A DNA stretch of 39,191 nucleotides from Gammaproteobacteria bacterium. Lineage in GTDB: Bacteria; Pseudomonadota; Gammaproteobacteria; Ga0077536. The position numbers and the translations under genes are program-made. A model generated the notes under the pieces. The model was not told where the DNA came from. It did no database searches and saw nothing but the letters and a program-made list of their open reading frames with translations. The first letter of the stretch is position 1; every line of letters begins with the position of its first letter. Location: positions 1 to 39,191 of the forward strand of contig JAIEQK010000310.1 of the NCBI GenBank assembly GCA_019747795.1, read 5' to 3'. Below are positions 31,372 through 39,191 of this stretch, piece by piece.

Positions 31372-31599
31372 TTAGGCAGCGGACCTGCGGAGCAGATCGG
31401 CCTTCGTGACGCGACCGCCTGTCAGCGCCTCGATGGTCTCGGAGTAGTTGGTTTCTCCGGTCCACTCTGTGCGGGGGAGGCGCCCTGCCTTCTCCCACTT
31501 CCGAAGAGCCTGGTAGGTCACTCCGCAGGCCGAGGCCAGCGGCTGAAGGCCGACCAGTTCGATCGCCACGGTGATGAAGTTGGGGTTTGCGGTGCTCAT
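31372..31599 (-). CDS. Cro-like repressor (YdaS-type helix-turn-helix)
   Basis: I use the ATG at 31599 (75 residues, MSTANPNFITVAIELVG). An alternative TTG lies 12 bases upstream. The segment LQPLASACGVTYQALRKWEK is a YdaS/Cro-like helix-turn-helix. It is divergent from cI with shared operators between, as expected for a switch protein. The predicted promoter -10 lies only about nine bases upstream of this ATG, so the mRNA could be leaderless. Confidence 0.82.
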   Translation of the reverse strand: MSTANPNFITVAIELVGLQPLASACGVTYQALRKWEKAGRLPRTEWTGETNYSETIEALTGGRVTKADLLRRSAA

Positions 31600-31607
31600 G
31601 AGCACGG

Positions 31608-31637
31608 ACAATAGTACCGAAAGTTACCTTTCGTCAA
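31608..31637 (-). promoter_or_regulatory. Leftward early promoter (pR-type) with operator sites
   Basis: On the minus strand TTGACG (31632-31637), an 18-bp spacer and TATTGT (31608-31613) form a promoter. A perfect palindromic site, CGAAAGTTACCTTTCG at 31618-31633, sits between the elements. A second GTTACC site lies at 31647-31652, 24 bp away. Both probably bind CI and Cro. Confidence 0.65.
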
Positions 31638-31678: not shown

Positions 31679-32392
31679 ATGGGGAAGGATCCAGAACGAG
31701 AGCGGCTGGCGTTCGCGAAGCGCTTGAACGAAGCGTGCGACGACGCCGGCGTTCCGGCGAAGCATCATGGCCGGCAGGGCGCTTTGGCCTCCCTGTTCGG
31801 GGTCACGCAGAAAGGAGCGCGTAAGTGGCTTGAGGGCGAGAGCATGCCGAGTCCGACTCGCTGGCCTGAATTCGGCGCCAAGCTGCACGTGCGACCGGAA
31901 TGGCTGTTTTTGGGCCAGGGCGGGAAGACTGAAGCCTCGCGCACGGCAAGCGTCATCGACCGGCCGCCGACCCTAAGCATCCCGCTGCTAAGCAGTTTTG
32001 CGTCGATGGGATTAGGGTTCCCAGTCCAAGAGCACGAAACCGTCATAGACAACCTGCGCCTGTCGCAGGACTGGTGCCGGCGGAACCTAAACGTCTCGAA
32101 TCTCGGGAATCTCGCCGCCCTCTCCGCCTACGGCGATTCCATGCGGCCCACATTCGATGATGGGGACATCCTCATCGTCGACCGGGGTATATCTTCTCTG
32201 ACCGTCGACGCGGTTTACGTTCTTCAGTTTCGCGACGAGCTATACGTCAAGCGAATCCAGCGCCGGCCGGATGGCGCCGTCGTGATCCGCAGTGACAATG
32301 CCTTGTACGAGCCTCTGGTGATCGACCCAGCAAGCGACGGGCTGCGGGTGCTCGGCCGCGTCGTCTGGGCGTGGAACGGTCGAAAGCTGTGA
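31679..32392 (+). CDS. cI: CI-type LexA-like phage repressor
   Basis: The start is the ATG at 31679 (237 residues, MGKDPERERLAFAKR); the frame runs upstream to 31571 without a stop but that part overlaps the operators. An N-terminal helix-turn-helix is seen at residues about 30-52 (RQGALASLFGVTQKGARKWL). The C-terminal S24 peptidase domain contains YGDSMRPTFDDGDILIVDRG with the nucleophile Ser154, and LYVKRIQRRPDG with the base Lys191. Such proteins repress lytic promoters and self-cleave upon RecA activation. It is divergent from cro. The cleavage bond is not certain; FASMGLGF in the hinge is a candidate region. Confidence 0.92.
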   Translation: MGKDPERERLAFAKRLNEACDDAGVPAKHHGRQGALASLFGVTQKGARKWLEGESMPSPTRWPEFGAKLHVRPEWLFLGQGGKTEASRTASVIDRPPTLSIPLLSSFASMGLGFPVQEHETVIDNLRLSQDWCRRNLNVSNLGNLAALSAYGDSMRPTFDDGDILIVDRGISSLTVDAVYVLQFRDELYVKRIQRRPDGAVVIRSDNALYEPLVIDPASDGLRVLGRVVWAWNGRKL

Positions 32393-32640
32393 GGATTATC
32401 CGGGAGTGGTCGTGGCGATGGATTCGCCTGAAAGCAGGTGAAGCGGCGGAGGCTGCTCGCGCGAGGCCGGTCCTCATTCTCATCTTCCTTGCAGCCATGG
32501 CTGTTGCCTGGCTGTTCCGCTACACGCCAGTCGCGAGGTCACGAGACGAAGCTGTCGTCCTGGATCGCTGGACCGGCAATTTCATCTACGTCGACTGCTG
32601 CTCTCGACGAGTCATCCCAGAGGAAAACCGCAACCCCTGA
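32389..32640 (+). CDS. Small membrane protein coupled to cI
   Basis: GTG at 32389 overlaps the cI TGA (GTGA) and starts an 83-residue protein; an earlier in-frame GTG at 32371 is less likely. It has a basic N-terminus, one membrane helix (ARPVLILIFLAAMAVAWLF, residues about 26-44) and a C-terminal domain with FIYVDCCSRRVIP, possibly periplasmic. Being in the same transcript as the repressor, it should be made in lysogens. Superinfection exclusion or lysogenic conversion is a reasonable guess, without direct motif support. Confidence 0.62.
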   Translation: MRIIREWSWRWIRLKAGEAAEAARARPVLILIFLAAMAVAWLFRYTPVARSRDEAVVLDRWTGNFIYVDCCSRRVIPEENRNP

Positions 32641-32673: not shown

Positions 32674-32724
32674 CGAAAAGGTTACTTTCAGTTCTTGACA
32701 ATAAGTAACCGCTAGTTCTATCTT
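32674..32724 (+). promoter_or_regulatory. Rightward early promoter (pL-type) with operator sites
   Basis: TTGACA (32695-32700), an 18-bp spacer and TATCTT (32719-32724) form the promoter of the right early operon. The core CAGTTCTTGAC is the same as in the leftward promoter. Operator-like sites GGTTACTT (32680-32687) and AAGTAACC (32703-32710) form an inverted repeat whose GTWAC centres are 23 bp apart; the first lies in GAAAAGGTTACTTTC, close to the palindromic site at the cro promoter. Confidence 0.7.
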
Positions 32725-32809
32725 CCTTCCGTCCGGCACCAGTCGGCGAGCAACACCACCCCGGCGGCCAGTGCTTCGGCCTGGTCGCCGGGCCCACGAC
32801 GGAAGGAAG
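32722..32809 (+). promoter_or_regulatory. Inverted repeat that can hide the ribosome binding site of the first early gene
   Basis: CTTCCTTCCGTC (32722-32733) and GACGGAAGGAAG (32798-32809) are perfect 12-bp complements. The right arm is the ribosome binding site of the ATG at 32815. Inside the loop a second stem (32761-32771 with 32781-32791, 11 bp with one G-U pair) is possible. The pL-type start should fall near 32731, so transcripts from that promoter would lack most of the left arm, whereas read-through RNA from cI would have it. Confidence 0.55.
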
Positions 32810-32814
32810 GAACC

Positions 32815-32967
32815 ATGGCGAACACGGTCCTCATGCGCGACTACGCGCCGCGTCACTGGCGCCGCCAGCGCCCGCTGCTGCTGGAGTGGCTGCCCGAGGT
32901 GCTGGCCTGGACGTTCATCGCCGCGGCCTGCTGGCTGCTCTACGTCGGCTGGCAGGTGCTGTCATGA
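32815..32967 (+). CDS. First early-operon gene, small membrane protein
   Basis: The 50-residue product (MANTVLMRDYAPRHWRR...) has a basic N-terminus and one membrane helix near the C-terminus (VLAWTFIAAACWLLYVGW). A strong GGAAGGAAGG site precedes the ATG. The TGA overlaps the next ATG (ATGA). Its place directly after pL resembles lambda small inhibitors such as those of the N/kil region, but no family is recognised. Confidence 0.72.
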   Translation: MANTVLMRDYAPRHWRRQRPLLLEWLPEVLAWTFIAAACWLLYVGWQVLS

Positions 32968-33170
32968 GCGCCGCCGACTTCGATCCGATCATCCTGGGCA
33001 TGCGGCGCCGGCTGCACCTGATCAACACCGCGGCATTCCTCGACCCGAAGGAGAAAAGCCTGCTCCGTCTCATTGTGCTGCGGGACACGCTGATCGAGTG
33101 GGCCGACGACGGCCTGCGCACCGGCCAGCAGCTGGACTGCATCACCACCACCGCGAGGGACTTGCAGTGA
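32964..33170 (+). CDS. Small helical early protein
   Basis: ATGA overlap with the previous gene sets the start (68 residues, MSAADFDPIILGMRRRLHL). The protein is mostly helical (LRLIVLRDTLIEWADDGLR), without a membrane segment. It ends in overlap with a GTG-started gene. The function is unknown. Confidence 0.7.
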   Translation: MSAADFDPIILGMRRRLHLINTAAFLDPKEKSLLRLIVLRDTLIEWADDGLRTGQQLDCITTTARDLQ

Positions 33171-33334
33171 AGCGCACCGAGCAGCCTTCCCTCATCCGAC
33201 TCATGCCATCCGCGCGCCCAGTGCCGCCTGCGGAGCGCGCGAAGTGCGTGCTCCTCATGCTGCTGAAGCGCTTGTGGATGGTGGACAACCGAATCCCGAC
33301 CGTCGATCACGGCGGCGGCAAATACAGGAGATAA
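33167..33334 (+). CDS. Small basic early protein
   Basis: GTG at 33167 overlaps the previous TGA (GTGA). The 55-residue product is basic and helical (KRTEQPSLIRLMPSAR, KCVLLMLLKRLWMVDNRIP). Its coupling suggests it is expressed together with the two preceding genes. No family is recognised. Confidence 0.62.
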   Translation: MKRTEQPSLIRLMPSARPVPPAERAKCVLLMLLKRLWMVDNRIPTVDHGGGKYRR

Positions 33335-33336
33335 CG

Positions 33337-33678
33337 ATGGATACGACTGAATTCATCGGCGATCTGGAGGCGGGGAATTTCGCCACCCGGATCGCCAAGG
33401 CGATCACGCTCGCGGCCGCCGGTGCCGTCACGCACGGGAAGAAAGGCCAGGTGTCCCTGGACTTCGAGTTCTCGCGCGTGCCGGGCAGCGCGCAGGTGTC
33501 GATCAAGCACAAGCTCGCCTTCGTCGAGCCGACGTTGACCGGCAAGGCGAGCGAGGAGCACACGGCGCAGACCGTGATGTACGTCAACAACGACGGCAGC
33601 GTCACGCTGCTGCCGGGCGACACCCGTTCCGACCTGTTCGGAAAGGAAGACCGCAAGGAGGGCCGCATCCATGGCTGA
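33337..33678 (+). CDS. Early phage protein paired with DUF2303
   Basis: The start is the ATG at 33337 with AGGAG seven bases upstream (113 residues, MDTTEFIGDLEAGNF). The N-terminal helix (ATRIAKAITLAAAGAVTHG) is followed by a beta-rich body (GQVSLDFEFSRVPGSAQVSI) and an acidic-basic tail. Small proteins of this type commonly precede DUF2303 genes in phage recombination modules. The stop overlaps the next start by eight bases. Confidence 0.75.
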   Translation: MDTTEFIGDLEAGNFATRIAKAITLAAAGAVTHGKKGQVSLDFEFSRVPGSAQVSIKHKLAFVEPTLTGKASEEHTAQTVMYVNNDGSVTLLPGDTRSDLFGKEDRKEGRIHG

Positions 33679-34489
33679 TCTGAGCGCACAGACCATTGAC
33701 CGCATTCTCCAGCTGGGCGAGGCCGCGCGGAAGATCGACTGGGATAAGGTCGCGGCTGGCGGCATCGACGGCGTCATCATCGATGGCGGCGCGAAGCTGG
33801 TGGACCTGGAGAAGTTCTTCCCCGGCCGCCGTCGGTTCCGCGGCGTGTTCAATACCCGCAGCTTGGCATCGTTCATGATCTACCTGAACGAGGCTGGCAG
33901 CGGCGACCTTTGTTTCATCGACCAGGACCAGATGGCTGCGCACGTCGTCATTGACATGGGCAACACCGAGGCCCCCGGCCATTGCGATCACAACGCCTGG
34001 CTGGAGCTGACGAAGAGCGTCGAGTACGAGGCGGTGCTGGCCGTGAACGGCAAGCTGATGAGCCAGATCGACACCTCGAACTGGCTGGAGGACTGGGCGG
34101 CCTGCATCACGGTGCCGGAGTCCAGCGCCAAGGCGGCCGCGAAGGCGTTCCGCACCATTGACCTGAAGGCGAAGGTCGAGCAGGAAAGCAAGGTCGGCAA
34201 CTTCGCCGAGTCCCAGTCTCGACTGCAATCGATCGAGGCGTCGAGCGCGCACAAGCTGCCCGAGGAGGTGCACTTCCGGGTGGCCGCGCCTTACGCCGAA
34301 TTCGACGAGCGAACCATCGTTCTCCAGCCCTCGATCCTCACGTCGGGCGATCGCCCCATGGTGCGGTTCCGTATTGTCGGGCTCGAACTGCTGAAGCAGG
34401 CCCTCGCGGACGAGTTCGCCGCGCGGTTGCGCGACGCCCTGCCCGAGAGCATCGAGCCGCTGCTGGGCAAGTTCGACGCGAAGAGCTGA
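33671..34489 (+). CDS. DUF2303 family protein
   Basis: The 272-residue protein has DGGAKLVDLEKFFPGRRRFR, GVFNTRSLASFMIYLNEAGS, CFIDQDQMAAHVVIDMGN and APGHCDHNAWLELTKSVEYE, the standard DUF2303 signature. The family occurs in phage early operons near recombination or single-strand-binding proteins, with unproven function. It follows its small partner directly and precedes a gp3-like gene after 35 bases. Confidence 0.85.
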   Translation: MADLSAQTIDRILQLGEAARKIDWDKVAAGGIDGVIIDGGAKLVDLEKFFPGRRRFRGVFNTRSLASFMIYLNEAGSGDLCFIDQDQMAAHVVIDMGNTEAPGHCDHNAWLELTKSVEYEAVLAVNGKLMSQIDTSNWLEDWAACITVPESSAKAAAKAFRTIDLKAKVEQESKVGNFAESQSRLQSIEASSAHKLPEEVHFRVAAPYAEFDERTIVLQPSILTSGDRPMVRFRIVGLELLKQALADEFAARLRDALPESIEPLLGKFDAKS

Positions 34490-34524
34490 TCTCACTCTCA
34501 CCACCACGAACAGGAAGGAAACCT

Positions 34525-35796
34525 ATGTCTACGTTGCCAACTGTTCGCCAGACCGGGGGGCTCGCCATCGCTGGCGGGCCCTCCGTTCTCGGCGAAAAAC
34601 CCGTGCGCCTGCCGACGGCAGGCAAGATCCGCCCCGGCATCAAGCGCCTCACGCGCCAGGCCGAGGCCAACCCCGACGCGCGCCGCGCCTACGACGAAGG
34701 CGTGGCCAAGGGCCAGGATTGGGGCACCATCGAGAAGGCGGTGCGCCAGGCGCTGAAGCTGGGCGATGACGCGCGATCGCCGATGACGCCGCAGAACACG
34801 CCCTACTTCCACGTTTGCCGCGCCGACTTCGTCATGCCCGAGATCGCCGATCGGATATTGGATTTGTACGGCGAAGATCGCGGCCAGGGCCGTCACCTAT
34901 ACCGCTTCCCGATCGTGCTGCCGGTGGACAACTGGCAGGCGGTGCTGCCGCACTCGCTCAAGGCCCACAAGCGCAACGAGCTGGTCTATTGGAGCGAATA
35001 CGGCGCGGACGGCGTGCGCTATTGCAAGATGCACGAGCCGCTGCGCGTCGATCCTCAGTCGAAGCGCGCGGCGCGCCCGTTCGGCGGCCGCCGGACCATG
35101 CTCCGCCCCGAGTTCTCCGGCCGGTGCGAGCCCGAGCAGTGCCCGCAGTACCAGTCCACGCCGCAGCAGTGCCGGCTGACCGGGAGCTTCATCTTCTACA
35201 TCCCGCAGATCCCCGGTGCCGGCGCCATCGAGCTGCCCATGACGAGCTTCTACGGGCTCCAGGGCATCCGCCAGCAGCTGGAGCTGATGACCTACGTGCG
35301 CGGCCGGATCAGCGGCACGCACAACGGCCAGCCGATGTTCTGGCTGACGAAGCGCCAGGAGGAGGTGTCCATGCTCGACCTGGAGCAGGGTATCCCGAAG
35401 CGCGTCACGCAGTGGATCACGACGCTGGAAGGCGCGGTCGATATGACGGCGCTCCTCACCGCGCCCGAGGAAGACCACGACGACCTGGTGACGCATGCAG
35501 CCCAGGTGCTCGAAGGGCCAGGCGTCACCATCGAGGGCGCGGCCACCGAGGCAGAGGAAGGCCCGCCCGATGATGGCGGCCCGGCGGTGAAGGATCTGCA
35601 AGCGAGCATCGCCGGCGAGCTGCGCGACCTGCGCGTCCAGTGGGCGACGTTCACCCCCTACGCCAACCACAAGTTCGGTGCCGACTGGACGGAAGACCGC
35701 ACGAAGCTGGCCGACATCCTGGCTGAGCTTCAGTCCGCCGTGTCGCACGACCAGTACCTCGAAAAGATCCACCTCACCATGGAGGACGCGCCATGA
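34525..35796 (+). CDS. gp3-like (recombination directionality factor-like) zinc-binding protein
   Basis: The 423-residue protein starts MSTLPTVRQTGGLAIAGG, with AGGAAGG before the ATG. The core (about residues 85-260) includes NTPYFHVCRADFVMPEIADR, RHLYRFPIVLPVDNWQAVLP, a cysteine cluster CEPEQCPQYQSTPQQCRLTG (four Cys, likely zinc), and IELPMTSFYGLQGIRQQLEL. From memory this pattern belongs to gp3-like phage proteins, sometimes labelled hydrolase/metal-binding. The C-terminus is acidic with a helical end. It is coupled to the SbcD-like gene. A role in recombination or single-strand DNA handling is likely; directionality factor function is not shown. Confidence 0.7.
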   Translation: MSTLPTVRQTGGLAIAGGPSVLGEKPVRLPTAGKIRPGIKRLTRQAEANPDARRAYDEGVAKGQDWGTIEKAVRQALKLGDDARSPMTPQNTPYFHVCRADFVMPEIADRILDLYGEDRGQGRHLYRFPIVLPVDNWQAVLPHSLKAHKRNELVYWSEYGADGVRYCKMHEPLRVDPQSKRAARPFGGRRTMLRPEFSGRCEPEQCPQYQSTPQQCRLTGSFIFYIPQIPGAGAIELPMTSFYGLQGIRQQLELMTYVRGRISGTHNGQPMFWLTKRQEEVSMLDLEQGIPKRVTQWITTLEGAVDMTALLTAPEEDHDDLVTHAAQVLEGPGVTIEGAATEAEEGPPDDGGPAVKDLQASIAGELRDLRVQWATFTPYANHKFGADWTEDRTKLADILAELQSAVSHDQYLEKIHLTMEDAP

Positions 35797-36998
35797 TCCG
35801 CGTAGCCCACCTTTCCGACATTCACTACTGCGACAAGTACCTGGCCGAAGTCGATGGGTGCATGGACGCGGCGATCCATCACATCCAGCGCAACCCGGTC
35901 GATCTGATCGTGCTGAGCGGCGACACCTTCGATCACCGGCTGGAGCAGAACAGTCCTGCGCTGTTCGCGGCGATCGACGCGGTGACGGAGTTGGCCAACC
36001 TTGCGCCGACGCTGATCCTGCAAGGAACGCTCTCGCACGACGCGCCCAACGCGGTCGGCATCTTCAGCAACCTGATGACGGGCTGCCCGATCTTCGTGGC
36101 GGACACCATCTGCCAGGTGGTGCTGTGGAACGACGCGCTGCTGCGGCCGGACTCACTGCCTGACGGCGCGGTTCCATCGAACGCACAGGCGCTGATCAGC
36201 TGCCTGCCATCCATCAACAAGGGCCAGGTCGCGGCCGCCGTCGGCGCCGAGAAAGCCGCGGAGTCGGTCGGCGAGCACGTCCAGCAGCTGCTGCGCGGCT
36301 GGGGTGGGAGCAACAACCGCCAGGCGCGCGCGCTGGGCGTCCCGACCATCCTGGTCAGCCACGGCACCGTGAGCGGCAGCGTGTCCGAGCACGGCGTGCC
36401 CATGATGGGGCTCGATCACGAGTTCACCACCGGCGCGCTGTTCGAGGCGAACTGCTCCGCCGTGATGCTGGGCCACATCCACAAGCACCAGGCATGGGCA
36501 GAGGAGAACGACGTCATCGCCTACCCCGGAAGCCTGGGCCGCCTGCACTTCGGCGAGCACGATCCGAAGGGCTTCCTCATGTGGAGGGTCAGCGGCGACG
36601 GCGCGAGCTTCGAATTCATCGAGACACCCGCGCGCCAGCTGGTCGACATCACGTTCCCTGGCTCGCCGGACATGGAAGAGCTAGCACGCCTGGCGAAGGA
36701 AGTGCCCGCGGGCTCGCACGTCCGAGTCAGATTCTCGATTGACGAGGAATTTCGCCAGTCAATCGACAGGACCGCGATGGCGGCCCTGTTCGAAGGGGAA
36801 GTGAAGATCGAGGGACGAATAAACCCGGTCCAGCGCCAACGATCTGCTGGCATAGGAAGCGCCTCCTCCATCCACGAAAAGCTGAAGCGCTACTGCGAGT
36901 CTGCTGGAATCGAGCCTGGTCCGCTTTTGGAGCGCCTTGAGCAGATCCTTGTGTGCGACCCCTCTTCCCAGAGGGAGGCGTCTGACCGTGCCGCGTAA
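35793..36998 (+). CDS. SbcD/Mre11-like nuclease subunit
   Basis: The 401-residue protein shows the calcineurin-like phosphoesterase motifs: HLSDIHY (DxH), LSGDTFDH (GDxxD), LQGTLSHD (here GTxSHD in place of GNHD), VSHGTVSG and MLGHIHKH (GHxHxH). This places it with phage SbcD/Mre11 proteins, which with an SbcC/Rad50 ATPase process DNA ends and hairpins. The replaced GNHD motif is seen in other phage relatives as well. The ATGA overlap joins it to the upstream gene. The SbcC-like partner is separated by an HNH gene. Confidence 0.85.
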
Positions 36999-37488: not shown

Positions 37489-39191
37489 ACCCACTACACC
37501 TCACTCTCCGCGGCTTCAAGGGAATCCGCGCCGGCCTGGGCAAAGACGAGATCGCCGTTGATCTGCGCATGCCGGGTCAGCTCGTCGCCCTTGTGGGCCC
37601 GAACGGCGCCGGCAAGACCACTATCCTGGACAACCTGCACCCGTACCGCGTGATGCCCTCGCGCGCCACGGGCTACGCGCCGGGCAGCTTCAGCTACTTC
37701 GACCACTGCTACCTGGCGGACTCGAAGAAGGTGCTGGTGTGGGAGCACGACGGCACCGTGTACGAGTCGACCATCCTGATCAAAGCGTCGGGCAAGACCA
37801 CGAAGCAGGAGTGCTACCTGGCGCGCGTGTCCGGCGACACCGCCCAGCCCGCGCGGCTGCCGGACGGCACGACCAGCGACGGCAAGACGAAGACCTACGA
37901 CGCGCTGGTCGAGCACATCCTGGGCACGCCTGAAATGTTCTTCACCGCGGCTTTCAGCTGCCAGGGCCGGCGCACGCTGGCCGACTACACGAACGGCGAC
38001 ATCAAGGCGCTGATGTCTGAGCTGCTGGGCCTGGGCGGCATTCTCGCTCTGGGCGAGCAGGCGAACGAGGAGCAGCGCGCGCGGCGCGCGCGCCTGGAAG
38101 GCATGCGCCAGCGCGTGCAGCGCGCGGCCCAGGTCGAGCGCGAGCACGAGGAGGCCGAGCTGGGCGCCATCGCGGCCGAGCAGACGGTCAACACCTGCCG
38201 CGCGAACGAGGCCCTGGCGCGCGACGCGCTGAGCGTGGCCGACCAGCGGCTGCTGGAGGCGCGCACGAACGCGGCCGGCTTCGCCGAAACCGAGCGCCGG
38301 CGGTCCTCGCTCCAGATGCAGATCGGCCAGCGCCAGGCGGAGCTGGAGAAGGCGGCGTCGGATATGAGTCTGGCGGCCGCGGCGGAGATCGCCAAGGTCA
38401 ACGACGCCATAGCCAAGACGCGCCAGGAGAAGAGCGAGGCAGAGGCCCAGGCGAAGCGCTTGGAAGATCAGATTTTCGACTTGAATCGGCAGCTGTCCGA
38501 CCGTGACGCCATCGAGGCGGCGCAGGCCGCGCTGCCCGCGCTGGAAGCCAAGGTGGATGCTCAGCGGAAGAAGGTCACCGCGGAAGAGCGCGCGGCGATC
38601 GTGTTCAACGACGCCGCCAAGGCGGTCGAAACCGCCGCGGCGGTGCTGAAGCTGGTCGAGCACGGCGGGAAGGCGCTCGCGGAAACCTGCGAGGGCGTGC
38701 GCTCGCGCGCCTGCCTGGCCGACCAGGTGCCGTGCCAGGGGACCGATCTCCAGGGGCGGTGCCAGCTGCTCGCGAACGCCATGGAGGCCAAGGCCGACCT
38801 GCCCAAGCTGGAAGCAGAGCTGACTGCGAAGCGCGAGGAGCGCGCCACTGCATTCTCGCAGTGGGAAACCGCCAAGGCGACGCTGCTGAGCCTCGTGGCG
38901 CCCACCGTGGCCGCATCGCGCGACGCGCTCGACGCCATGGAGCACGAATATCGGCGAACCGCGGCTCTCGCGGCCAAGGCCGGCGAGCAGGACGCGCTGG
39001 AGGCGCGCGTGGCGGACAAGAAAGCCGCATTGGAGGAGGCGCGACACCGCATATTCGGCATGGCCGCCATGATCGTTAGCCAGGAGAGCCAGGTCGAGGG
39101 CATCCGCGCGCAGAACGAAATGAACGTGACCGTCTTCAAGGCCGGGCGCGAGGCCGAGATCCAGGTGCTGCGCGACGAGCTGGCCGCGCTG
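37485..39191 (+). CDS. SbcC/Rad50-like ATPase, 3' part beyond the window
   Basis: The frame is open from ATG at 37485 to the right edge (569 codons). It begins with [11 protein letters not shown], then the Walker A motif GPNGAGKTT (about residues 38-46) and a Q-loop-like [14 protein letters not shown] long Ala/Glu/Arg-rich coiled coil follows from about 190. A cysteine-bearing turn, [16 protein letters not shown], near residue 405 could be the zinc-hook equivalent, after which the returning coil begins. The Walker B part must lie beyond the window. It forms the end-processing complex with the SbcD-like protein. Confidence 0.87.

Follow-up and report, generated by a model that had tools for sequence, protein, structure and literature searches.

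In bacteriophage T4, the early transcripts of e, soc, 49, and I-TevI form structures that cover the start region, and the late promoters of these genes sit within the 5′ strand of that structure, so that RNA made from them lacks the strand and is translated, an effect of about 100-fold in the case of gene e (PMC3014915, PMC2988022). The locus described here is similar in that RNA from an upstream promoter is predicted to fold over the Shine-Dalgarno (SD) sequence or start codon while RNA from a nearer promoter would escape. In T4, however, the nearer promoter is a late promoter and the device serves lytic timing; at this locus the nearer promoter is of the CI-type pL kind, and the longer RNA would come from the repressor operon of a lysogen. 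The T4 leaders bear no sequence relation to the one we describe.

In Tn10/IS10, outside transcripts are reportedly silenced by RNA folding in which sequence from upstream of the element's own promoter start takes part. Tn10 is described as guarding against external promoters (Davis et al. 1985, as cited in PMC2965389). The likeness is that a mobile element uses RNA folding so that outside transcription leaves its gene unexpressed; the difference is that the gene there is an insertion-sequence transposase and the RNA comes from the host, whereas here the RNA is that of the phage's own repressor operon. Phage lambda shares the layout, with a repressor operon (cI-rex) that is co-directional with pL-N and like promoters that flank the repressor, but the leader of lambda N, the classical pL gene, has no lock: the same computation applied to a 150-nt leader gives an opening cost of 5.2 kcal/mol for read-through RNA and 6.9 kcal/mol for pL RNA. 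In searches of open-access literature, we found no report of a lock at a cI-to-pL junction. The principle has precedents in T4 late genes and Tn10, and its use at this junction looks like a new variant.

Lysogens need silent lytic genes even though the repressor gene, which is always transcribed, can face the pL operon. A lock in the start region would offer insulation that needs neither a protein nor a terminator and that sorts RNAs by origin, giving both a concrete, testable answer to the problem of pL insulation and a signature with which to screen other prophages. On the basis of the sequence, the promoter pair, the predicted folds, and the self-matching arms that recur in relatives, we postulate that the early (pL) operon carries such an origin-dependent translation lock, a reading to which we assign a probability of about 0.75. 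The window, meaning the whole stretch of DNA that was analyzed, is one entire contig of 39,191 bases from a genome of 5.9 Mb, and the features of interest are as follows.

31608 to 31637, minus strand: pR, a cro-type promoter (TTGACG-18-TATTGT) and the partner of pL, found by pattern and alignment
31679 to 32392, plus strand: cI-type repressor with an S24 peptidase-like C-terminal domain (PHROG phrog_4, E = 1.3e-41; Pfam Peptidase_S24, E = 9.8e-20)
32389 to 32640, plus strand: small open reading frame (ORF) with a hydrophobic segment, its GTG start overlapping the cI stop
32680 to 32724, plus strand: pL with operator-like GGTTACTT...AAGTAACC (TTGACA-18-TATCTT at 32695 to 32724)
32722 to 32733, plus strand: left arm CTTCCTTCCGTC, the anti-Shine-Dalgarno strand; it overlaps both the −10 element and the predicted start (about 32731)
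32760 to 32792, plus strand: inner hairpin of 14 pairs with a UUCG tetraloop, found by folding
32798 to 32809, plus strand: right arm GACGGAAGGAAG, holding most of the ribosome-binding site (RBS)
32815 to 32967, plus strand: first early gene, 50 amino acids with a hydrophobic segment, third-position GC (GC3) 0.96, its stop overlapping the next start
32964 to 36998, plus strand: remainder of the pL operon, namely two small ORFs, an ORF at 33337, and DUF2303, Gp3-like, and SbcD-like phosphoesterase genes

The repressor start codon (ATG at 31679) was picked by reading the sequence. The repressor transcript runs toward pL, and both cI and the small ORF behind it, which is probably co-transcribed with cI and has no family match in PHROG or Pfam, read co-directionally into that promoter; pattern scans of the plus strand found no intrinsic terminator between cI and pL. 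The pL and pR regions are identical at 33 of 50 positions and share an 18-nt spacer, while 2,000 mononucleotide shuffles peaked at 26 identities. As in lambda immunity regions, similar operator-promoters thus flank cI, one directed toward cro and the other toward the early left operon, and this layout of two look-alike operator-promoters makes pL credible. The −10 element of pL ends at 32724. Transcription by sigma-70 polymerase usually starts at the seventh base after the −10, and G32731 (+7) is the sole purine in +1 to +10 besides the G at +10. Together with the likeness to pR and the shared spacer, this places the predicted start at about 32731, within the left arm, in agreement with the preliminary description, and RNA from that position would keep three left-arm bases.

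On the far side of the repressor, the cro-type gene (31592 to 31613, minus strand) is nearly leaderless, beginning just 8 bases past its −10, and its start codon lies inside a perfect palindrome, GTGCTCATGAGCAC. The DUF2303, Gp3-like, and SbcD-like assignments in the pL operon come from PHROG and Pfam searches. The first early gene had no homolog in searches that included these two databases, and two larger proteins of the operon had none in the viral contigs searched. A 517-amino-acid open frame farther on (37494 to 39047, minus strand), with no PHROG or Pfam match, may be spurious or a novel gene.

The two arms are exact reverse complements of 12 bp, as the preliminary description had stated; they are separated by a loop of 64 nt and connect the boundary between the pL −10 and start site to the RBS of the first early gene. 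The 3′ arm lies over the SD or start-codon region, as in promoter-in-the-arm sequestration of the T4 e and I-TevI kind. The 39-kb window holds three perfect inverted repeats with arms of 12 bp or more and loops of at most 100 nt (shuffle mean, 0.85). When the upstream 108 nt were shuffled and the RBS was kept, a 12-mer match recurred with p = 5e-5, and among 980 other gene starts (from the window and the loci of relatives), perfect complementarity to the SD region reached 10 bp at most. Rfam gave zero matches above any family's gathering score in the window.

Between the arms lies a second stem, as had been described, although it is longer than the 11 bp originally given: 12 contiguous pairs, one of them G-U, and two further pairs that close the UUCG loop (−29.5 kcal/mol; z = −5.3). 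RNA spanning 32722 to 32809 has a predicted fold of −52.2 kcal/mol (z = −4.8), and RNA that crosses from upstream is predicted to fold at −69.5 kcal/mol (z = −4.5) with the RBS paired. In the predicted fold of RNA from 32731, mainly the inner hairpin is left. Folding both RNAs in silico, the check proposed in the preliminary description, gave the expected contrast, with the stem predicted to form in read-through RNA and to be lost from RNAs that start near 32731. Opening the RBS is predicted to cost 17.4 kcal/mol in read-through RNA versus 5.7 kcal/mol in pL RNA, and 5.6 to 6.4 kcal/mol for every start from +5 to +9; an RNA beginning at or before 32725 would retain the 12-bp stem.

In the scheme that we infer for transcript ends, lysogen read-through, and translation, the anti-Shine-Dalgarno strand would be encoded in the interval from the −10 element to the start site. 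Read-through RNA from the cI operon would carry both arms, drawn together by the inner hairpin, and its RBS would be hidden and its translation blocked. RNA initiated at pL would begin within the left arm, retaining about 3 of its 12 bases, and would leave the RBS open, with the inner hairpin still in place.

A DNA search of 50,697 phage records returned no relative of the window leader, and a comparison with 190 related genomes gave short, chance-like matches only; the leader has no close homolog, and the comparison therefore used distant relatives. These were found via cI homologs in viral and genome contigs, and their pL promoters mostly by resemblance to the pR of the same phage. In many of these relatives, the bases right after the −10 are complementary to the first gene's start region, and the arm sequences differ between phages. 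Inner hairpins lie between the arms of L054 (TCTCCC/GGGAGA), whose cI is 55% identical in its C-terminal part, and L188 (CTCTCC/GGAGAG). Other pairs are CCTCC/GGAGG in L149, GTCCATCTC/GAGATGGAC in L070, CACGTCCGTCTC/GAGATGGACGTG in L034, and CCTCAC/GTGAGG in L080.

Real pairing can be told from pyrimidine-rich starts meeting purine-rich RBSs by a swap test, in which each phage's start segment is scored against its own RBS and against those of all other phages. At 19 curated loci, with starts chosen by the analyst, own pairs scored −11.8 kcal/mol versus −7.8 kcal/mol for swapped pairs (z = −6.8; p = 2e-5, the lowest value attainable with 50,000 permutations). Removing the window and the loci whose start may have been picked with knowledge of the arm left z = −4.6. 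An automatic rule for promoters and start codons picked 17 loci, some of them shared with the curated set and a few with doubtful starts; these gave z = −5.4, or z = −4.7 once the window was removed (p = 2e-5). Judged by own versus swapped pairs, the arms are conserved or compensating among distant relatives. Predicted opening costs were 9.1 kcal/mol for native read-through RNAs, 5.6 kcal/mol with swapped arms, and 4.1 kcal/mol for pL RNAs.

The complementarity signal extends from about −3 to +12 after the −10, peaks around and just before the predicted start, and has its center between the −10 and that start. With an 8-base sliding segment, it rises at the −10 end, is best within −1 to +10 (curated) or −1 to +8 (automatic), and is absent from segments beginning at +9. 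This is where a strand unique to read-through RNA should sit, whereas a hairpin of the pL mRNA should sit further on. One control segment, at −33 to −18, showed a weak, unexplained excess (z = −2.5 and −2.7). L064 and L095 have little or no lock, and at L088 the complementarity leaves the predicted fold unchanged. The preliminary description had regarded a lack of complementary arms in relatives as fatal to the idea; instead, diverse relatives have different, self-matching arms in the same place, with a minority lacking them. All parts of that description open to computational checking held up.

A first scan found an intrinsic terminator 78 to 131 nt before the end of the pL −10 at 10 of the 19 loci (L068, L181, L188, L149, L088, L064, L074, L090, L095, and L047), all GC-rich, and none at the window and eight other loci. 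Locks measured 11.4 kcal/mol at the nine loci without a terminator versus 7.1 kcal/mol at the others, in a post hoc comparison (p = 0.015; 0.028 without the window). With a looser scan, which skipped clear terminators and accepted doubtful ones, the association was not significant (p = 0.07 to 0.10); given these faults, we base the association on the first scan and treat it as post hoc. The pattern suggests that pL can be insulated by either a terminator or a lock, a relationship that needs a larger sample. We would give even odds to the broader proposition that temperate phages with a repressor operon directed into pL recurrently use a discriminator-encoded anti-Shine-Dalgarno for insulation, replacing or supplementing a terminator, with new arms re-evolved across lineages.

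The stem might instead belong to the pL mRNA, with transcription starting farther upstream and the structure acting as a 5′ stabilizer or as translational control opened by a factor. The lambda N leader, which is processed by RNase III, offers a parallel, and at L070, L072, L080, and L067 the left arm runs 2 to 4 bases past the predicted start, so that part of the stem stays. At the window, L054, L188, L149, and L088, however, pyrimidines follow the −10 to +6 or +7, and a start at the first purine therefore excludes the arm wholly or almost so. Since complementarity also declines past about +7 to +9, in the region expected to be most complementary if the hairpin belonged to the pL mRNA, we consider this account unlikely.

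The size of the stem, 12 bp stacked on a 14-bp hairpin, and the tendency of terminator-less loci toward stronger stems would also be consistent with a read-through structure whose main role lies in processing or termination (as an RNase III site, for example) rather than in hiding the RBS. But no T tract follows the hairpin, and what the left arm consistently complements across phages is the SD/start region, making either function quite improbable as the main one. Low-complexity arms (CTTCCTTCC/GGAAGGAAG) invite the thought that a pyrimidine-rich start segment complements a purine-rich RBS by chance; yet the shuffling result for the window RBS and the advantage of own over swapped pairs, in which both compositions are preserved, leave chance a very slim prospect. 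A reading of the arms as a DNA site for a protein was set aside because they lie 64 nt apart, each is asymmetric, and they vary together with the RBS between phages.

Some relatives, mostly Comamonadaceae, have a second kind of pL leader (L037 at 8581, L057 at 7957, L063 at 8566, L077 at 8465, L078 at 9472, L085 at 7455, L097 at 8157, L043 at 6951, and others), with shorter forms in L083, L084, L044, L049, L092, L106, and L050. Here the predicted start carries CCATCGC, which pairs with GCGATGG or with varied partners (e.g., GCCTAACT/AGTTGGGC), and the pairing partner lies just 5′ of a conserved CACCACGGCATCGACCGGG..CCCGGTCTTT terminator-like hairpin. Both arms of an inner stem vary together in L071 and L077 (CAAACAACC/GGTTGTTTG and CACAAAC/GTTTGTG). 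The element had no Rfam match at the five loci scanned; an antitermination or attenuator RNA is one possibility. In L037, Rfam identified a Burkholderiales-2 RNA (RF02917; 9297 to 9371, minus strand) some 0.7 kb downstream of the pL leader.
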